Shown one piece after another: positions 573 to 22,790 of a DNA stretch of 33,139 nucleotides. Both the position numbers and the translations under genes were made by a program. Positions within the stretch are counted from its first letter, which is position 1, and every line of letters starts with the position of its first letter. Under the pieces are notes generated by a model, which was given only the letters and a program-made list of their open reading frames with translations, had not been told where the DNA came from and did no database searches. The stretch is from Pirellulaceae bacterium (GTDB lineage: Bacteria > Planctomycetota > Planctomycetia > Pirellulales > Thermoguttaceae): NCBI GenBank assembly GCA_012744395.1, contig JAAYCB010000086.1, positions 1 to 33,139 of the forward strand, in the 5' to 3' direction.

Positions 573-1760
573 ATGATTGCCAATCCCCTTCGTTTCGCGC
601 GGATCGGTTTGGTCTCGCTCGCGCTGCTCGCCTTCGCCCAGCCGGCGAGGGCGGCGGAGCCGAATACCCTCTCGCCCGAGGAGGTGGCCGACGGTTGGAT
701 TCTGCTGTTCGACGGCGAAACCCTGTTTGGCTGGCGCCCCGCCACCCAGGTCGATTGGCAGGTCGTCGACGGCGCGATCACCGCCAGCGAAGGTGAGAAC
801 GGCCTGCTCTACACGACCGGCCAGTTCGGCGATTACCAGTTGCAGGTCGATTTTCGCTGCGCGCCTGGCGGCAATAGCGGCGTCTTTCTGCGGACGCCGC
901 CGATGCCAACCGACGTGAAGACCCGCTGCTATGAGCTGAACATCGCGGACCCGGCCACAAACCGGTTTCCAACCGGCAGCTTCGTCGAGCGGCAGGCCGC
1001 CGATGGCGCGGATCGCGGCGGCGGCTGGCAGACCTTCGACGTGACCGCCGAGGGGGGCCACTTTCTGGTCAAGCTCGGCGGCCGGGTCGTGCTCGACTAC
1101 CGCGACCCCGCCCCGCTCGGCCGCGGCTACATCGGCCTCCAGTTCAACACCGGCAAGATCGAATTCCGCAACATCAAGCTCAAACCGCTCGGCATGAAAC
1201 GCCTGCTGAACGGCCGGGACCTGGCCGGTTGGAAGACATTCCCCGATCTGGCCAGCGTCTTCACCGTCACCCGGGAAGGCTGGCTGAACGTGAAGAACGG
1301 CCGTGGAATGCTCGAAAGCGAGGGGCAGTACGCGGATTTCACGCTCCAGCTGGAATGCTTCGTCAACGGCAAGGGGCTCAATTCGGGGGTCTTTTTCCGC
1401 TGCATACCGGGCGACATCATGAACGGCTACGAATGCCAGATCCATAACGGCTACTTGGGCGGCGACCGCACCAGGCCCGAGGATTGCGGCACCGGCGGAT
1501 TCTTCCGACGGCAAGATGCTCGGCGGGTCGTGGCCGACGATTTCACCTGGTTCTCGCTGACGCTGCACGTCGACGACCGGCACATGGCCGCCTGGGTCAA
1601 CGGCTACCAGGTGAGCGATTGGAGCGACACGCGGGAGCCGAACGAGAATCCCCGCCGCGGGCTGCGGCTGGAGGCCGGCACGCTCCAGATCCAGGGGCAC
1701 GACCCGACCACGGATTTCAACTTCCGCAACCTGCGGATTGCCGAAATTCCGCAGCGGTGA
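573..1760 (+). CDS. Secreted protein with two DUF1080 (3-keto-disaccharide hydrolase) domains
   Basis: 395 aa. The ATG at 573 is chosen because it starts a classic signal peptide (basic RFAR, then a hydrophobic run ending in PARAAEP); upstream in-frame codons encode low-complexity sequence. Two DUF1080 jelly-roll domains follow. The first is near residues 35-210 (WILLFDGETLFGW ... GNSGVFLRT ... GYIGLQFNTGKIEFRNIKL). The second is near 212-394 (LLNGRDLAGWKTF ... LNSGVFFRC ... GYECQIHN ... TDFNFRNLRI). The family is linked to hydrolysis or binding of 3-keto-glycosides and is much expanded in planctomycetes; most members have one domain. Periplasmic or extracellular location is inferred from the signal peptide. 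The second domain keeps the NSGVFFR and YECQIHN signatures, so both copies look structurally intact. Substrate unknown. Downstream is a cytochrome gene about 180 bp away with a possible promoter of its own. Confidence 0.85.
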   Translation: MIANPLRFARIGLVSLALLAFAQPARAAEPNTLSPEEVADGWILLFDGETLFGWRPATQVDWQVVDGAITASEGENGLLYTTGQFGDYQLQVDFRCAPGGNSGVFLRTPPMPTDVKTRCYELNIADPATNRFPTGSFVERQAADGADRGGGWQTFDVTAEGGHFLVKLGGRVVLDYRDPAPLGRGYIGLQFNTGKIEFRNIKLKPLGMKRLLNGRDLAGWKTFPDLASVFTVTREGWLNVKNGRGMLESEGQYADFTLQLECFVNGKGLNSGVFFRCIPGDIMNGYECQIHNGYLGGDRTRPEDCGTGGFFRRQDARRVVADDFTWFSLTLHVDDRHMAAWVNGYQVSDWSDTREPNENPRRGLRLEAGTLQIQGHDPTTDFNFRNLRIAEIPQR

Positions 1761-1937: not shown

Positions 1938-3983
1938 ATGAACTGGCGTCTTCTGGCCGTGGCCGCGTTGCTTCCGTGGGTTGGAGCGGCCGCCTGGGCG
2001 GCCACCGCGGAAACGCGCTTTTCCCAGACACTCAGCCGCAGCGACTATGTCCACTGGATCGAACTCTACGACGCCAAGGGCGACCAGATCGACCCGGCCC
2101 GTCCCGATGCCGCCCCCTACTCGCCGGTCCACACCTGCGGGCGCTGCCATGACTACGAAGCGATCCGGCACGGGTACCACTTCAGCACGGGGTCGACCTC
2201 CGGCGACTCGAGCCGCCGGGGCGAGCCCTGGATCTGGACGGACGACCGCACCGGCACGCAGATTCCGCTCTCGGCGCGGGGCTGGCCGGGAACCTACGAT
2301 CCGGCCGGGCTCGGCATCTCCGAGTGGGACTTCGTCCTCAAATTCGGCCGGCACCTCGCCGGCGGCGGACCCGGCGAAGGGCCCAGCGCGGCGGGCGATC
2401 CGCCGGCGGCGGCCGACGCAGAAGACGCCCAGAAGCCCGCGAAGCCCGCGAAGGCCGGCGACAAGGCCCAAGCCAACGCGCCTGCCGGGCGCTGGCATCT
2501 GTCGGGCCAACTGGCGATTGATTGCATGATCTGCCACGCGAAGGACCGGTCCTATAGCCCGGAAGTCTGGTCGGACCAGATCGCCAGCCAGAACTTCGCC
2601 TGGGCGCCGACGGCGGCCCTCGGGTTGGGCCGGGTGGAGGGGAAGGTTTCGGCCTTGCCGGACGATCTTGACGCCGCTGCGGCGGACGCCAAGGACAAGC
2701 TGCCGAAAACCACTTATCTTCCGCACCGCGTCGGCGCCGACAAGAAAGTCTTTTTCGATGTCGTTCGCACGCCCGACGACCGCGCGTGCTACTATTGCCA
2801 CACCACGCGGTTTACGGGCGCGGAAGTCGCGCCCGAATGGACCCATGACGAAGACGTCCACCTCCGCGCCGGGATGACCTGTAGCGATTGCCACCGCAAC
2901 GGGATCGAGCACCAGACGGTCCGCGGGTTTGAGGGCGAAACGAGCCCCAGCGGCCAGCCGGTCCAGACGCTCTCCTGCCGCGGCTGCCACATGGACGAGA
3001 GCGGCGGCGGGCGGCTCGGCGCGCCGCGGGCGGTGCACAAGGGGCTGCCGCTGGTGCACTTCGACAAACTCGCCTGCACCGCCTGCCACAGCGGCCCCCG
3101 CCCCGGCGACAAGCCGGTGCAGATCCTCACGTCGATGGCACACGGCTTGGGGCTGCCCGCCCACCATTACGGCGAGAAACTGCCGCCGGCGATGGTTGCC
3201 CCCGTCTATCTCCAGGCCGGCGGCGCGCTCGCTCCGCACCGGATGGTCTGGCCGGCCTTCTGGGGCGCGCTGAAGGATGGCGAAATCGCGCCGCTGAATC
3301 CCGACAAGGTCTACGACGCCTTGCGGCGGACGCTGCGGGTCCGCCGCGGCTCGAATTTCACCGCTGCGGTCTCCGAAGTGAAGCTCACCGCCGCGGACAA
3401 AGCGAAGGCGCTCGGCGAAGAGCGGGCCGCGGTGGCCGAGAAGGAGCTGACCGGCGAAGAGAAGGCCAAGCTGGAAGAATTGACCGCCGTGATGGCCGCC
3501 GACGCCTTTCGCAAGAAGCTCGCCGAGGCTCTCGGAGAGCTGAAGAAAACCCTTCCGGCCGACGGCTCCGAGCCGGTCTATGTCGCGGGCGGCCGCGCGT
3601 ACCGCGCCGCCGAGGGCGCCGTCGAGGCGTTCGAGCACGCCGCGGCCGAACCCTACGCCTGGCAATTCGCCCACGACGTGCGGCCGGCCCGCGATGCGAT
3701 CGGCGCGGCGAGTTGCTTCGAATGCCACGCCGATGACTCCAAGTACTTCGCGGGCGTCGTTACCGCGCTCGGGCCGGCTCCCGACAACCAGCCCCCGCAG
3801 TCCACGATGCGCCAGCTCGCCGGGCACGATCCGCTGATGCACAAGGCCTGGAACCTCTCGTTCCCGGGCCGGACGGCCTTCAAGTTCTTCGGCTTCGCCT
3901 CGTTGGGCGTGCTGGCCCTGGTGCTGCTGGCCTACAGCGCCCTGGCGGTCGTGGCGATCGCGCGGTTCGTGCGGCGCTTGTAG
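1938..3983 (+). CDS. Seven-haem c-type cytochrome, membrane-anchored
   Basis: 681 aa. The ATG at 1938 opens a signal peptide (MNWRLLAVAALLPWVGAAAW). Seven CxxCH haem-binding motifs are visible: CGRCH (C67), CMICH (C196), CYYCH (C284), CSDCH (C315), CRGCH (C347), CTACH (C380) and CFECH (C593). The C-terminus has one hydrophobic helix (GFASLGVLALVLLAYSALAV) and a basic RFVRRL tail, so the haem domain should face the periplasm with a C-terminal anchor. Between hemes 1 and 2 is an Ala/Lys/Pro-rich stretch; between hemes 6 and 7 is a charged, probably coiled-coil segment (around residues 480-535). It likely carries electrons between the quinone pool and a periplasmic or external partner. The next gene, 62 bp downstream, encodes a cytochrome-b-like membrane protein, its probable partner. 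I cannot assign a substrate; no signature of a known nitrite, hydroxylamine or tetrathionate reductase is recognised. Confidence 0.85.
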   Translation: MNWRLLAVAALLPWVGAAAWAATAETRFSQTLSRSDYVHWIELYDAKGDQIDPARPDAAPYSPVHTCGRCHDYEAIRHGYHFSTGSTSGDSSRRGEPWIWTDDRTGTQIPLSARGWPGTYDPAGLGISEWDFVLKFGRHLAGGGPGEGPSAAGDPPAAADAEDAQKPAKPAKAGDKAQANAPAGRWHLSGQLAIDCMICHAKDRSYSPEVWSDQIASQNFAWAPTAALGLGRVEGKVSALPDDLDAAAADAKDKLPKTTYLPHRVGADKKVFFDVVRTPDDRACYYCHTTRFTGAEVAPEWTHDEDVHLRAGMTCSDCHRNGIEHQTVRGFEGETSPSGQPVQTLSCRGCHMDESGGGRLGAPRAVHKGLPLVHFDKLACTACHSGPRPGDKPVQILTSMAHGLGLPAHHYGEKLPPAMVAPVYLQAGGALAPHRMVWPAFWGALKDGEIAPLNPDKVYDALRRTLRVRRGSNFTAAVSEVKLTAADKAKALGEERAAVAEKELTGEEKAKLEELTAVMAADAFRKKLAEALGELKKTLPADGSEPVYVAGGRAYRAAEGAVEAFEHAAAEPYAWQFAHDVRPARDAIGAASCFECHADDSKYFAGVVTALGPAPDNQPPQSTMRQLAGHDPLMHKAWNLSFPGRTAFKFFGFASLGVLALVLLAYSALAVVAIARFVRRL

Positions 3984-4045
3984 TCCCCACACGCAAGCCA
4001 GAGAAGTCTTGCCCTCGGAATCCAACCCCTCCTGGAGCCGCCTCC

Positions 4046-4648
4046 ATGTTCCCCGATATCTGCCGTCTGCCGATTGCCGCCAGCTCGCACTCCAGCGAGA
4101 TATTTCGCATCGCGCTGCCCGTGGGCCTGCTGGCCGGCGCTGCGATTGTCCTTCTGCACCTGGTGATCACGCGGTTCTGCGGCAAGGCGCCGCAGCGCAA
4201 GCCCTGGCGATGGTGGGAAGCGCTGGTCTATCTCGGCGTGCTGGGGATCATCGCCTGCCTGGGCGTCACGGCGTTTGCCGCCGTGCTCCGCCTCGGCGCG
4301 ATCGGCGGATGGTGGCTGTTTGCCCACATGTGCGGGGCCGGCGCGATGGTGGCCGCCCTGCCCGTGCTGGCCCTGATGTGGGCCGATTCCAACCGCTTCC
4401 AGATCGGCCCGGCAGACAGCGGCCCGGCCGAACCGGTCCAGTTCCTGGCAATCGCCAAGCTCGCTTATTGGACGGTCCTGGCCAGCGGGCTGGTCGTCGC
4501 GGGCACAATGATCGTGAGCATGCTCCGCTGGCTCGGCACGCCCGGCCAGCAGCTGATGCTCGACGTGCACCGCTACGCGGGGCTGGTCTGCGTCGTGGCC
4601 GCGGGGGTGCACCTGTACGGCGTTGCGCTGCGGCGGCTGGCCCCGTGA
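4046..4648 (+). CDS. Cytochrome b-like integral membrane protein
   Basis: 200 aa, with about five hydrophobic helices (residues roughly 23-43, 58-80, 87-111, 133-160 and 174-195). Histidines lie in or at the edge of helices: H38, H94, H175 and H189. H175 in DVHRYAGL and H189 in AAGVHLYG, 14 residues apart in the last helix, resemble haem-b ligand spacing in di-haem cytochrome b subunits. The gene follows the seven-haem cytochrome c directly and in the same direction, so a quinol-oxidising or quinone-reducing membrane subunit that exchanges electrons with the multihaem protein is a reasonable inference. A start at 4009 in another frame gives no membrane protein and is rejected. Family membership is not certain, as no strongly diagnostic motif is present. 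Confidence 0.65.
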   Translation: MFPDICRLPIAASSHSSEIFRIALPVGLLAGAAIVLLHLVITRFCGKAPQRKPWRWWEALVYLGVLGIIACLGVTAFAAVLRLGAIGGWWLFAHMCGAGAMVAALPVLALMWADSNRFQIGPADSGPAEPVQFLAIAKLAYWTVLASGLVVAGTMIVSMLRWLGTPGQQLMLDVHRYAGLVCVVAAGVHLYGVALRRLAP

Positions 4649-4926: not shown

Positions 4927-5709
4927 CTACGGAAGGAGCTTGAGTTCGACCTTGCGAAACTCGCAGGGGTGGCTCTCCGCCTGGAGCGAGATCGAGCCGC
5001 CGGAGAGCATCTTCTGGCCGTCTTTGATCAGCTTCCTGGCGTCCGGGTCGTTCTCGTCGAGCTGCGGCTGTTCGTATTCAAACACGAGCTCGCCGTTGAC
5101 GCGATGGCGGATCAGCTGGTTGCCGTGGACCTCGACTTCGACCGTTACCCACTGGTCGCCGTGATAGGTTTTCGACGACGAGTTGTTGCAGTGCGCAGTA
5201 ATCAGTTTGCCGTTCTGCACGAAATGGGTGCCGGGCGAGCAGACGTTGGCCGTCGGCCGGCGCCCCTGGCCACTGCCGCCGAGCAATTGAACTTCGATCG
5301 ATACGGGGAAGCTCTGATCCTTGCCCATCGTTTCGGGCGGTTGGCCGTGGAGCATGATGCCGTTGTTTCGAAACGCCCAGCCGGGACCGCCCGGGGCCTG
5401 CTGGCCGACGAAGCGATATTCGACCCGCAGGATGTAATTGGAAAAGGGCTTCTCGTAGAACAGATGGCCGAATCGGTCGTTGAACTTCTCGTAGCGGTCA
5501 TAGGCCACCTTGAGCACGCCATCCTCGACGCGGAAGGTGTCGCCCCAATTCTCGCCCAGCTCATAACCCTTGATCTTGACCTTCCAGCCGTCGAGGTTCT
5601 TGCCGTTGAACAACGGGATCCACTCGCCGCGGGGCGGTTCGCCGCCAAGCGCCGCCGTGGCCGCCAGACCGAGCAGCACTGCAAACAGGCCGTTGCATGT
5701 CTTCTGCAT
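4927..5709 (-). CDS. Secreted DUF1080 (3-keto-disaccharide hydrolase) protein
   Basis: 260 aa. The ATG at 5709 is chosen because it starts a signal peptide (MQKTCNGLFAVLLGLAATAALG) and has an AGAGG ribosome site a few bases upstream; a longer frame from 5775 would overlap the preceding gene. A single DUF1080 domain covers residues about 30-258: WIPLFNGKNLDGWKVK, then FRVEDGVLKV, GHLFYEKPFSNYILRVEYRF, NNGIMLHG, VSIEVQLLGG, WVTVEVEVHGN and a C-terminal RKVELKLLP strand. DUF1080 proteins act in the periplasm or outside the cell on keto-glycosides. The gene lies 4 bp after the beta-helix protein gene on the same strand, so the two are almost certainly cotranscribed and may act on the same glycan. 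The substrate cannot be read from the sequence. Confidence 0.85.
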   Translation of the reverse strand: MQKTCNGLFAVLLGLAATAALGGEPPRGEWIPLFNGKNLDGWKVKIKGYELGENWGDTFRVEDGVLKVAYDRYEKFNDRFGHLFYEKPFSNYILRVEYRFVGQQAPGGPGWAFRNNGIMLHGQPPETMGKDQSFPVSIEVQLLGGSGQGRRPTANVCSPGTHFVQNGKLITAHCNNSSSKTYHGDQWVTVEVEVHGNQLIRHRVNGELVFEYEQPQLDENDPDARKLIKDGQKMLSGGSISLQAESHPCEFRKVELKLLP

Positions 5710-5713
5710 GGCA

Positions 5714-6682
5714 TTACCTCTCGTCTTCGGTGTCCGGGGCCGAGTCTCCGGCCGGTTTCCATTCGTCGAGGCCATCCTCGACCTTCTTGCCGTCGGCGAA
5801 GACGGTGCCGCCGCGGTCGACCCAGGCGGGGGCCGTGTTCGACAGGAGTTGCGAATTGAGCACGTAGGTCCGCGAATAGGGGTGCGTCAGCAATTGCGCT
5901 TCGCCGTTGTCGCCGAGCAGGCAGTTCTCGATGTTGACCAGCGACGCGCCGCCAACGCTCACGCCGGCCCGCGCGTTGCCGCGGCAGGTGATTTGCCGCA
6001 GGACGATCTCCCGCGCGGTGTTGTGGGCGCTGAGGCCATCGAGCTGGAACCCCTGGATCGTGAAATTCCGGATTTCGACGTGCTCGACGGAAAACAGTGT
6101 GATTCCCACCCGGCGAGCGGCCATCGCCAGCGGGTAGTCGGGCGGCTGCTTGTAGGGCTCGGTGCGGAAATAGATCGAACCGTCGTGCAGGCACCACTCG
6201 ATCGGCCCGAGTTCGAGGGGAAAGGCGTCTGGATGCCGGCAGGCGGCGCGCGGAACCGGCTTGCCGTGCAGGAACATCTGCTCGTAGACCAGATCGCGGG
6301 GCTGGAAACGGTAGACCGTCTCGTGGCAGTGCTGCCAGACCGTCTCCGGCACCGGTTCGGCGCCTTCCAGCAGGGCCCCGTTGCCGTCGATCGTGAACGG
6401 GCGCTGCCGCGAGCCGCTGTGCCGCCGGCCGACAAGGCTCAAGCTCTCGCGATACGGCTGCCCGGTATTGGCGACGAGGATCCGGTCGCCCGAGTCGGCG
6501 ATTGCCAGCGCGCGGCGGAGCGTCTTCAGCGGTCCGGCGCCGTCGGACGTGGGCGCAACCTGGCGCCCAAGGTAGCGGTCGTTGCCGGCGAGGTTGTTGA
6601 CGTGGATGTCCCTCGCCCACGCCGGACCATCCGCACCGGCCATGAGGCCCACGATGGCAATCAAACCACGCATGGTGTGCAT
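5714..6682 (-). CDS. Secreted right-handed parallel beta-helix protein (pectin lyase-like fold)
   Basis: 322 aa, ATG at 6682 with AGGAGG eight bases upstream. A short signal peptide (RGLIAIVGLMAGADGPAWA) is followed by DIHVNNLAGNDRY and GPLKTLRRALAIADSGDRILV, the usual opening of planctomycete beta-helix proteins. Strand-turn repeats follow through residues about 195-290 (HVEIRNFTIQGFQLDGLSAH, EIVLRQITCRGNARAGVSV, LVNIENCLLGDNGEAQLL, TYVLNSQLLSN). This fold is found in polysaccharide lyases and hydrolases and in non-catalytic surface proteins; I see no catalytic residues that would decide. The acidic C-terminus (DGLDEWKPAGDSAPDTEDER) is not helix-like. It is the first gene of a pair with the DUF1080 gene 4 bp downstream, which suggests a shared carbohydrate target. 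Confidence 0.78.
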   Translation of the reverse strand: MHTMRGLIAIVGLMAGADGPAWARDIHVNNLAGNDRYLGRQVAPTSDGAGPLKTLRRALAIADSGDRILVANTGQPYRESLSLVGRRHSGSRQRPFTIDGNGALLEGAEPVPETVWQHCHETVYRFQPRDLVYEQMFLHGKPVPRAACRHPDAFPLELGPIEWCLHDGSIYFRTEPYKQPPDYPLAMAARRVGITLFSVEHVEIRNFTIQGFQLDGLSAHNTAREIVLRQITCRGNARAGVSVGGASLVNIENCLLGDNGEAQLLTHPYSRTYVLNSQLLSNTAPAWVDRGGTVFADGKKVEDGLDEWKPAGDSAPDTEDER

Positions 6683-7576: not shown

Positions 7577-7604
7577 GGCATTGAACGCGCGATGGATTTT
7601 GCCC

Positions 7605-7628
7605 GTTCCCAAGCCGGAGCTTGGGAAC
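7605..7628. repeat. REP-like palindrome, copy 1
   Basis: gttcccaagc and gcttgggaac form a perfect 10-bp stem with a 4-nt loop, between the macrodomain and TSUP genes. The same arms recur at 8814-8839 and 27952-27977. A degenerate gtgggaacgagg tail follows. Confidence 0.7.
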
Positions 7629-7672
7629 GAGGGTCGGGGTGGGAACGAGGGTTAGAACAGGTCGATCCATCC

Positions 7673-8653
7673 ATGCAGCTTTTTATTCCGGTCCTGATTG
7701 GACTTGTTGCCGGCGTTCTGGGCGGGCTCCTGGGCATCGGCGGATCGTTGATCATCATTCCGGGAATGGTCATTTACCTGAGCCACACGGCGGCTGGCTA
7801 TCAGGGGATCGATCAGCACCTGCTCCAGGCGGCGGCGATGATTGTCAACGTGTTCGTGGCCGCGCCGTCGGTGATCGCCCATTACCGAGCCGGCGCGATC
7901 ATGCGGCCGATCGTGGTCTGGCTGATCCCCGCGTCGATTGTCGGAATCCTCTCGGGCGTGGCCTTGAGCAACAGTCCGGCCTTCGCCCGGCAAAACGGCG
8001 CTTACCTGGCGATGATCTTCTGCGGATTCCTCGTTTACGTGATCGGCTACAACCTGCACCGCATGCGGCAGCTGCCGCGTCCGGTCGGCGATGAGCCGCT
8101 CCGGCCGGAACGCTGGAAAGTGGCCCTGGTCGGGCTCGTGATGGGGCTGCTTGCCGGGTTGCTGGGCATCGGCGGCGGGGCGATTTGCGTGCCGATGCAG
8201 CAGGTCCTGCTGAAGGTTTCTCTGCGGAAGGCGATCGCCAACAGCGCGGCGACGATTCCTTTTGCGTCGATGATCGGCGCGGTCCACAAAAACCTCACGC
8301 TTGCGGGGCATGGGTTCGAAATCAGCCAGTCGCTGCTGTTGGCCGCGATGCTGATCCCCACGGCCATTGTGGGGAGCTACTTCGGCGGCCGGCTGACCCA
8401 TGTGCTTCCCCGGCGGATCCTGCGGGCGACCTTCGTGCTGTTTCTTTCGGCGGTTACGGTCCTCACGTTCTCCAAGGCGTTCCGTGCGCTCAAGACGCCC
8501 CGCGACACGCGGGCCATCGTTCAGAACGTTGCTGCTGGAGGAGGGCGAGCCGGCGGAGGTAGTGGGAAGCCGAACGATCCGCCGGATGGGTTGGCGGGGG
8601 TAGTGGGAAGCCGAACAATCCGCCGGAGGGGCCGGCGGGATTTTCTGGGGTGA
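7673..8653 (+). CDS. TSUP (TauE/SafE) family membrane permease with repeat-derived C-terminal tail
   Basis: 326 aa. The ATG at 7673 begins the first membrane helix; upstream in-frame sequence is the REP palindrome. Two homologous halves are visible, each opening with the TSUP signature: GLVAGVLGGLLGIGGSLIIIPGM near residues 9-31 and GLVMGLLAGLLGIGGGAICVP near 155-175. Seven to eight hydrophobic helices are expected. TSUP proteins move anions such as sulfite or organosulfonates across the inner membrane; nothing nearby tells the substrate. The last helix ends about residue 268. The remaining tail of roughly 55 residues, rich in Gly/Arg/Pro, is encoded by the dispersed repeat array at 8541-8780, and the stop codon TGA (8651-8653) lies inside a repeat unit. 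The original stop has probably been lost to repeat insertion. Confidence 0.85.
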   Translation: MQLFIPVLIGLVAGVLGGLLGIGGSLIIIPGMVIYLSHTAAGYQGIDQHLLQAAAMIVNVFVAAPSVIAHYRAGAIMRPIVVWLIPASIVGILSGVALSNSPAFARQNGAYLAMIFCGFLVYVIGYNLHRMRQLPRPVGDEPLRPERWKVALVGLVMGLLAGLLGIGGGAICVPMQQVLLKVSLRKAIANSAATIPFASMIGAVHKNLTLAGHGFEISQSLLLAAMLIPTAIVGSYFGGRLTHVLPRRILRATFVLFLSAVTVLTFSKAFRALKTPRDTRAIVQNVAAGGGRAGGGSGKPNDPPDGLAGVVGSRTIRRRGRRDFLG

Positions 8654-8780
8654 GAGCGAGCCGGCGGGGGTAGTGGGAAGCCGAACGATCCGCCGGGCGA
8701 GCCGGCGGGATTTTCTGGGGTGAGGGCGAGCCGGCGGGGGTAGTGGGAAGCCGAACGATCCGCCGGAGGGGCCGGCTTGA
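8541..8780 (+). repeat. Repeat array A: four copies of a hairpin-forming unit
   Basis: The core tagtgggaagccgaacgatc (one copy has aacaatc) starts at 8560, 8601, 8671 and 8741, spaced 41, 70 and 70 bp. Each core is bracketed by ccggcgg on the left and ccgccgg on the right, so a single copy can fold into a hairpin. The 70-bp spacings include a second motif, gccggcgggattttctgggg. A related array with the variant core aaggatcc lies at 16579-16840. It spans the end of the TSUP coding region and the gap before imuA. Confidence 0.9.
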
Positions 8781-8787
8781 TTTTCCT

Positions 8788-8839
8788 GGTTGCCAAGCTC
8801 CAGCCAGCTTCCTGGTTCCCAAGCTCCAGCTTGGGAATT
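8788..8839. repeat. REP-like palindrome, copy 2, with a degenerate half copy
   Basis: ggttcccaagct-cc-agcttgggaatt at 8814-8839 is a near-perfect palindrome of the family at 7605 and 27952. Just upstream, 8788-8818 carries a decayed copy (ggttgccaagctccagcc, agcttcctggttcc). Both lie between repeat array A and the imuA promoter. Confidence 0.7.
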
Positions 8840-8897
8840 TGGGTCTCGCCTACGGCCGATCGGCTGGTTTTTCGCGCGGCGGATGCCGATAAACCAA

Positions 8898-8926
8898 TTG
8901 ACACCGATAGCGTACAAGTGTACACT
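8898..8926 (+). promoter_or_regulatory. imuA promoter overlapped by a candidate SOS operator
   Basis: TTGACA (8898-8903) and TACACT (8921-8926) are exactly 17 bp apart, about 25 bp upstream of the imuA start. cgtacaagtgtaca (8911-8924) overlaps the -10. It is GTAC-N4-GTAC and matches the spacing and outer bases of the GAAC-N4-GTTC LexA box with one symmetrical change in each half. imuA-imuB-dnaE2 cassettes are LexA-controlled in many bacteria, so LexA or a similar repressor is a fair guess, but the box itself is unproven. Confidence 0.6.
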
Positions 8927-8950
8927 GCCGGAAGGAAAGGAGATTCCCGC

Positions 8951-22075: not shown

Positions 22076-22780
22076 ATGCGGAATTCTGCCATTCGATGGT
22101 CATTGGCGGCGGCGTTTCTGATGCTCTTCGCCCTGCCCCTTCAGGCGGCCGGGAAGGGCAAGGGGATCGAACCGTTCAACGGCAGGGACCTGTCCGGCTG
22201 GCGGACCGCCGGCGGCGATCCGCAAGCGACGCTCAAGGTTGGCACGGCACGCCTCGATCCGCAGGACCCCGCCCGGCTGATCGTCGAACCGGGCGGGTCG
22301 GACCTGGTCAACCCCACCGCCCATGCCAAGGACTTCTTCACGGAACAGAAATTCGGCGACGGCGTCTACGAGATCGAGTTCATGGTGCCGAAGGGCTCGA
22401 ACTCCGGCATCTACATCATGGGCGAGTACGAGATTCAAATCCTCGACAGCTTCGGAAAGACCGAGGTTGGCCCCGGCGACGTGGGCGGGTTGTACGGCGC
22501 CCAGGCTCCCCGGGTCAACGCCGCCAAGGCGCCGGGCGAGTGGCAAAAGTTCGTCGTCGATTTCCGCGCGCCCAAGTTCGACGCGTCCGGCCAGAAGACG
22601 GCCAATGCGCGATTCGTCCGCGTCACTCTGAATGGCAAGGTGATCCACGAAAACGTCGAAATGAAGCAACAGACGCCCGGCGGAGTGACCGGCAAGGAAC
22701 ACCCCGAAGGGCCGCTGATGTTTCAAGGCAACCACGGGCCGGTCGCGTTCCGCAAGATCAAGATTCGGCCGCTGGAGTGA
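22076..22780 (+). CDS. Secreted DUF1080 (3-keto-disaccharide hydrolase) protein
   Basis: 234 aa, ATG at 22076 with GAGGAGG upstream. Signal peptide with RWSLAAAFLMLFALPLQAAG. One DUF1080 domain: IEPFNGRDLSGWRTAGG, then DFFTEQKFGDGVYEIEFMVPKGSNSGIYIMGEYEIQILDS, EWQKFVVDFRAP, VRVTLNGKVIHENVEM and the closing GPVAFRKIKIRPLE. NSGIYIMGEYEIQI is the most conserved block of the family. Short compared with the two-domain protein at 573. Exported, probably acting on keto-sugars or binding glycans; substrate unknown. It is driven by its own promoter and stands next to the xylanase unit on the opposite strand. Confidence 0.87.
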   Translation: MRNSAIRWSLAAAFLMLFALPLQAAGKGKGIEPFNGRDLSGWRTAGGDPQATLKVGTARLDPQDPARLIVEPGGSDLVNPTAHAKDFFTEQKFGDGVYEIEFMVPKGSNSGIYIMGEYEIQILDSFGKTEVGPGDVGGLYGAQAPRVNAAKAPGEWQKFVVDFRAPKFDASGQKTANARFVRVTLNGKVIHENVEMKQQTPGGVTGKEHPEGPLMFQGNHGPVAFRKIKIRPLE

Positions 22781-22790
22781 GAGTGTAGCC

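Follow-up and report, generated by a model that had tools for sequence, protein, structure and literature searches.

A seven-haem cytochrome c resembling an octahaem reductase scaffold, its cytochrome b-like partner and a possible link to periplasmic glycoside oxidation in three bacterial phyla

The window, that is the whole stretch of 33,139 nucleotides analysed (contig JAAYCB010000086.1 of a Pirellulaceae bacterium, assembly GCA_012744395.1), carries two genes, designated A and B, whose coordinates in the initial annotation proved exact (Table 1). A encodes a protein with exactly seven CxxCH motifs (residues 67, 196, 284, 315, 347, 380 and 593), within which all 14 of its cysteines are located. 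Chance was ruled out as the origin of this number, since residue-shuffled versions of A contained a mean of 0.009 CxxCH motifs and a maximum of 2. The structural model of A has a signal-like N-terminal helix (residues 3-23) and a C-terminal helix (residues 632-680), which together with the motif count confirms the initial description of a seven-motif haem protein with a C-terminal anchor. B starts 62 bp past the stop codon of A and exhibits five hydrophobic segments with histidines at positions 38, 94, 175 and 189, as expected from the five helices and paired histidines claimed for the second gene.

A same-strand gene for a 3-keto-disaccharide hydrolase precedes A by 177 bp and occupies the same place in L016, a locus of the same genus; a second, convergent hydrolase gene follows B. 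A third gene of this family is present in the window at 22096-22788. Short intergenic repeats, probably a dispersed repeat, were also observed at about 7590-8930; these translate as PKLELGN- or QAPAWE-like peptides that recur in the same-genus loci L099 and L100.

Table 1. Features of the A-B locus and its flanks, in window coordinates
Feature	Position	Strand	Basis
3-keto-disaccharide hydrolase (PF06439, two stretches)	573..1760	+	Pfam, 234.5 bits (cut-off 26.8)
A: c-type cytochrome of 681 aa with seven haems, a signal peptide and a C-terminal membrane anchor	1938..3983	+	Sequence, 68-sequence alignment, model
Haem 1 motif CGRCH, residues 67-71	2136..2150	+	C, C and H in 68/68
FGRHLAGG, residues 136-143, replaced haem-2 site	2343..2366	+	Aligned to CGxCHPGGG of seven octahaem relatives
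Haem 2 of A, CMICH, residues 196-200	2523..2537	+	68/68; register with eight-haem relatives
Haem 3 of A, CYYCH, residues 284-288	2787..2801	+	68/68
Haem 4 of A, CSDCH, residues 315-319	2880..2894	+	68/68
Haem 5 of A, CRGCH, residues 347-351	2976..2990	+	68/68
Haem 6 of A, CTACH, residues 380-384	3075..3089	+	68/68
Beta-rich insert and helical arm between haems 6 and 7, residues 394-576	3117..3665	+	Model, pLDDT mostly >90; conservation
Haem 7 motif CFECH, residues 593-597	3714..3728	+	68/68
C-terminal membrane helix of A, about residues 650-676	3885..3965	+	Sequence; helix 632-680 in model
B: five-helix cytochrome b-like protein, 200 aa	4046..4648	+	Sequence; sub-cut-off Ni_hydr_CYTB / DUF4405 similarity
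3-keto-disaccharide hydrolase (PF06439), convergent, downstream of B	4927..5775	-	137.5 bits; also in L016

In an alignment of 68 A proteins the cysteines and histidines of all seven motifs were invariant, with one Acidobacteriota member (L026) having CxxxCH at haem 1. Exactly seven further histidines, outside the motifs, were invariant in all 68 sequences (39, 81, 308, 325, 367, 374 and 579 in window numbering), and no lysine was invariant across the alignment. The beta-rich insert also contains a conserved WPAFWG. Seven haems matched by seven invariant partner histidines would leave no free substrate site, and from this conservation all seven haems are probably bis-His ligated. A is thus probably an electron wire and not a catalyst, and the predicted ligation supports the electron-conduit role suggested initially.

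The model of A built from 68 sequences (pLDDT 89.0, pTM 0.86) replaced an earlier one from 16 sequences that had a pLDDT of 59.5 and a poor haem core. A Foldseek search of the PDB with this model gave no significant match. Alignment with VIA-align placed octahaem tetrathionate reductase (OTR) of Shewanella, 1SP3, at the top with a Z score of 8.1, near the level reachable by unrelated folds, an rmsd of 4.6 and 312 of 436 residues aligned, spanning residues 35-641 of A; the next row had a Z score of 2.9. Sequence searches of the PDB with A yielded short NrfA-like matches only, and Pfam gave generic multihaem matches only. A missed the curated cut-offs of all the named enzyme families: TIGR04315 for OTR (29.7 bits, cut-off 375), TIGR04314, MmcA (36.4 bits, cut-off 250, with A the sole match to this model in the window genome) and PF03264, the NapC/NirT/NrfH tetrahaem quinol dehydrogenases (19.5 bits over 54 residues, cut-off 24.1). 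The weak sequence matches of A to the OTR family agree with the fold match to 1SP3. The initial view that no known multihaem enzyme signature is visible therefore holds for curated sequence models, all of which scored below cut-off, but is corrected by the fold match to OTR.

A group of eight-haem relatives of A clarifies the comparison. Those of loci L004-L007 and L158-L160, from Pirellulaceae and Acidobacteriota, are about 26-29% identical to A over most of its length and share with it the haem order and the C-terminal membrane region, whereas they keep the second haem, and the sugar-gene cluster described below is absent from all seven neighbourhoods read. Their additional CGxCHPGGG aligns with FGRHxPGGG in A, in the stretch that separates its first two haems, so that haem 2 of A is expected to be the counterpart of OTR haem 3. 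The second haem of OTR is catalytic and lysine-ligated (PMC11024163). Since it is the CGxCH at this position that is replaced, A looks like an octahaem tetrathionate reductase scaffold minus its catalytic second haem, a change whose direction we infer. While A has the overall fold of OTR (1SP3, TIGR04315), it differs in lacking the catalytic haem, in being membrane-anchored and in being paired with B. Eight-haem A relatives with a C-terminal, cytochrome b-like membrane region were also found in L199-L205, in addition to the seven loci above; inspected by eye, the neighbours of eight-haem loci included ArsR-type regulators, an ArsA-like ATPase, an ACR3-like permease or CcdA/thioredoxin-like genes, and no sugar genes.

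The closest functional parallel is MmcA of Methanosarcina acetivorans, a seven-haem relative of OTR that lacks the second haem and has been demonstrated experimentally to be a conduit (PMC11024163). By its published description, MmcA has in common with A seven haems and an OTR scaffold without haem 2, and its role as a membrane conduit is the one predicted for A. Unlike MmcA, A carries a membrane anchor of its own and a beta-rich insert and is partnered by a cytochrome b. Two of the haem motifs of MmcA are non-canonical, and it has no transmembrane helix and a place in an Rnf operon (PMC11024163). The motifs of A in the window are all canonical CxxCH. In a general clustering of the genes around A, Rnf did not appear among the recurrent neighbours. 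Relative to MmcA, the new points are that A comes from bacteria, is anchored in the membrane, has a cytochrome b as partner or fusion domain and is found in a putative sugar-oxidation cluster in three phyla.

Searches with profiles built for A and B found the two genes adjacent or fused in 70 of 75 loci from Planctomycetota, Acidobacteriota and Verrucomicrobiota, 24 of the 70 encoding both as a single fused ORF, and direct tblastn placed B next to A in nearly all of 16 clear relatives. The linkage proposed for the pair from one locus is therefore borne out across three phyla and is not due to chance, and the fusions are good evidence for one joint complex. His94 is kept in 67 of 68 B proteins and His175 in all 68, while His38 and His189 are conserved in the clade of the window; outside this clade, two near-invariant histidines leave room for one haem only. 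B scored below the cut-offs of both PF01292, cytochrome b561 / Ni-hydrogenase cytochrome b (17.5 bits, and 24.9 for a relative, against 30.1), and DUF4405 (18.1 against 26.7). It resembles the cytochromes of these families as a small helical membrane protein with paired histidines and differs from them in its tie to a multihaem partner. DUF4405 cytochromes have been linked to ApbE clusters (PMC11334425). B is predicted to bind haem b and may react with quinone.

The 16 clear relatives of A came from a scan of GTDB contigs and belong to Planctomycetota, Acidobacteriota and the Verrucomicrobiota/Kiritimatiellota/Lentisphaerota group. Whole-genome sampling at E < 1e-40 gave matches in 35 of 392 Planctomycetota, 32 of 396 Acidobacteriota and 20 of 387 Verrucomicrobiota-group genomes, counts that include a few weaker matches representing eight-haem relatives. 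A cytochrome c assembly gene was present in 20 of 20 genomes tested against 8 of 14 controls. UbiA, used as a marker for quinone synthesis, was present in all 14 controls and was therefore uninformative. In L165, ApbE is immediately followed by a gene for a UbiA/MenA-like prenyltransferase, approximately 1.5 kb downstream of A, which might connect the locus to quinone.

Outside the clade of the window the A-B pair lies within a cluster of sugar-related genes. Among 67 such loci, 52 were well flanked and were used for counting, with Gfo/Idh/MocA (Gfo) genes scored within 4 kb. One specific Gfo orthologue was found beside A in 45 of the 52, spanning three phyla, and the other members were ApbE (43), a secreted F5/8C-like protein (40) and an Agl23-type glycosyltransferase (34) that scores above its curated cut-off. 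The cluster Gfo proteins have a mean column identity of 62%, an invariant twin-arginine motif and the usual glycines of the nicotinamide site. Their nearest named kin, all distant, are inositol dehydrogenases, glycoside 3-dehydrogenases of the BT_2158 type and DgpA; against the model for BT_2158 glycoside 3-dehydrogenase (NF058561) they reached 83.1 bits and missed the cut-off of 750. They differ from the BT_2158-type and DgpA enzymes in being Tat-exported and encoded next to a cytochrome.

Two cluster ApbE proteins matched PF02424 at 192.1 and 233.8 bits (cut-off 25.6), and most of the ApbE proteins read had no obvious signal peptide. No conserved [ST]GA[ST] flavinylation motif was found in the cluster proteins, a point against the proposed scheme at the ApbE target and at the step from nicotinamide to haem. 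The Gfo gene is preceded on its own strand, often directly, by genes for a TIM-barrel isomerase (19 loci), a 3-keto-disaccharide hydrolase or ThuA; the hydrolase is beside Gfo in ten loci and between B and ApbE in two more. These three families are typical of 3-keto-sugar breakdown. An open-literature search returned nothing relevant on 3-keto-sugar enzymes with cytochromes or on the A-B cluster. Variations in gene content were noted: the F5/8C-like and Agl23-type genes occur as a free-standing pair without A in L099, L102, L103 and L104 (Pirellulaceae), and in L083 and L021 Pfam identifies an FGE-sulfatase (sulfatase-modifying-factor) gene immediately before A, a position also occupied by a gene in L082. 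A divergent ApbE-Gfo pair is present in both L082 and L083.

The window itself and its whole clade are without this cluster. In the tree, the window, its Pirellulales kin and a few others form the cluster-free set, requiring two label changes against 8.6 in shuffles. The window genome contains no cluster-type Gfo, its 69 other Gfo/Idh/MocA matches reaching 163 bits at best against roughly 500-820 in the clusters, and no gene for the F5/8C-like protein was found in it. Hydrolase genes are the only cluster-type flanks of the window pair. Genes for Gfo proteins and 3-keto-disaccharide hydrolases abound in planctomycetes, and the window genome has 31 matches to the hydrolase family, so the flanking hydrolases could be there by chance; chance is nevertheless an unlikely explanation for one hydrolase neighbour. 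The initial statement that the pair was not assigned to a known pathway stands for the window but not for its relatives, whose cluster includes a Tat-exported Gfo and 3-keto-sugar genes.

These observations suggest that A-B, as a conduit in the membrane, connects glycoside oxidation in the periplasm with quinone, a reading to which we give an even chance. Its conduit part is well supported; the link to sugar is drawn from gene context and is weaker for the window itself. A would be a periplasmic seven-haem wire on an OTR scaffold, held to the membrane by its C-terminal helix, and B a b-haem membrane protein through which A and the quinone pool exchange electrons. In the majority of relatives this wire would serve the oxidation of periplasmic glycosides by the Tat-exported Gfo/Idh/MocA enzyme, most likely a dehydrogenase forming 3-keto-glycosides. 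ApbE, the F5/8C protein (putatively sugar-binding-like), the Agl23-type glycosyltransferase and often the hydrolase, isomerase or ThuA would belong to the same glycoside-oxidising system. Electrons would most likely flow from sugar to bound nicotinamide, possibly to a flavin, and then through A and B to quinone; in this scheme the haem b of B, the link to quinone, the flow direction, the substrate and the flavin step are all predicted. The neighbouring genes somewhat favour an entry of electrons into the membrane from sugar oxidation, with reduction of quinone, over their exit from it. As the pair is free-standing in the clade of the window, the dehydrogenase donating its electrons there must be encoded elsewhere. 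In the genus of the window, the hydrolase genes that flank the pair on either side point to the same sugar chemistry. A more specific proposal, that A, B, the Tat-exported Gfo and ApbE together constitute a respiratory glycoside dehydrogenase, in which a sugar oxidoreductase bearing nicotinamide acts outside the cytoplasmic membrane, with electrons passing via flavin and the seven-haem wire to quinone, is tentative and somewhat doubtful.

Flow in the opposite direction is rather unlikely but would account for part of the evidence. Here B would oxidise quinol and A would pass the electrons to a periplasmic or extracellular acceptor such as a metal, humics or another reductase, comparable to MmcA with Fe(III) and AQDS, the sugar genes being metabolic context only. 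The predicted all-bis-His wire, the MmcA-like architecture and the free-standing pair in the clade of the window, without a dedicated dehydrogenase, are consistent with such a role, whereas the pairing of A-B with one specific exported Gfo orthologue in clusters of three phyla is not readily reconciled with it, and no family of outer-membrane conduits or terminal reductases recurs among the clustered neighbours. The regular presence of the Agl23-type glycosyltransferase and the F5/8C protein could instead indicate that the cluster builds or modifies a surface glycan or glycoprotein, in which Gfo oxidises an attached sugar and A-B drains its electrons in a process other than catabolism; this is distinctly improbable, as these two genes are also found together without A, and the hydrolase, isomerase and ThuA neighbours suggest breakdown. 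A reductase of the OTR or NrfA kind with a cryptic active haem would fit the fold match and the weak similarity to TIGR04315, but is most improbable given that the catalytic haem-2 motif is replaced, that seven partner histidines serve seven haems and that there is no invariant lysine; A as a nitrite or tetrathionate reductase was rejected on the absence of the catalytic haem.

Planctomycetes and their kin encode dozens of Gfo/Idh/MocA and 3-keto-disaccharide hydrolase proteins, many of them apparently exported and of obscure use. Should the proposal of a respiratory glycoside dehydrogenase hold, polysaccharide degraders of three phyla would have converted a reductase scaffold into a sink for the electrons of 3-keto-sugar formation. 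With the archaeal MmcA, A is probably a further case of an octahaem reductase fold that lacks its catalytic haem and functions as a wire, in many relatives as a fusion with a membrane cytochrome b. The conserved wire beside an exported Gfo offers a testable answer to the question of how exported nicotinamide enzymes are reoxidised.
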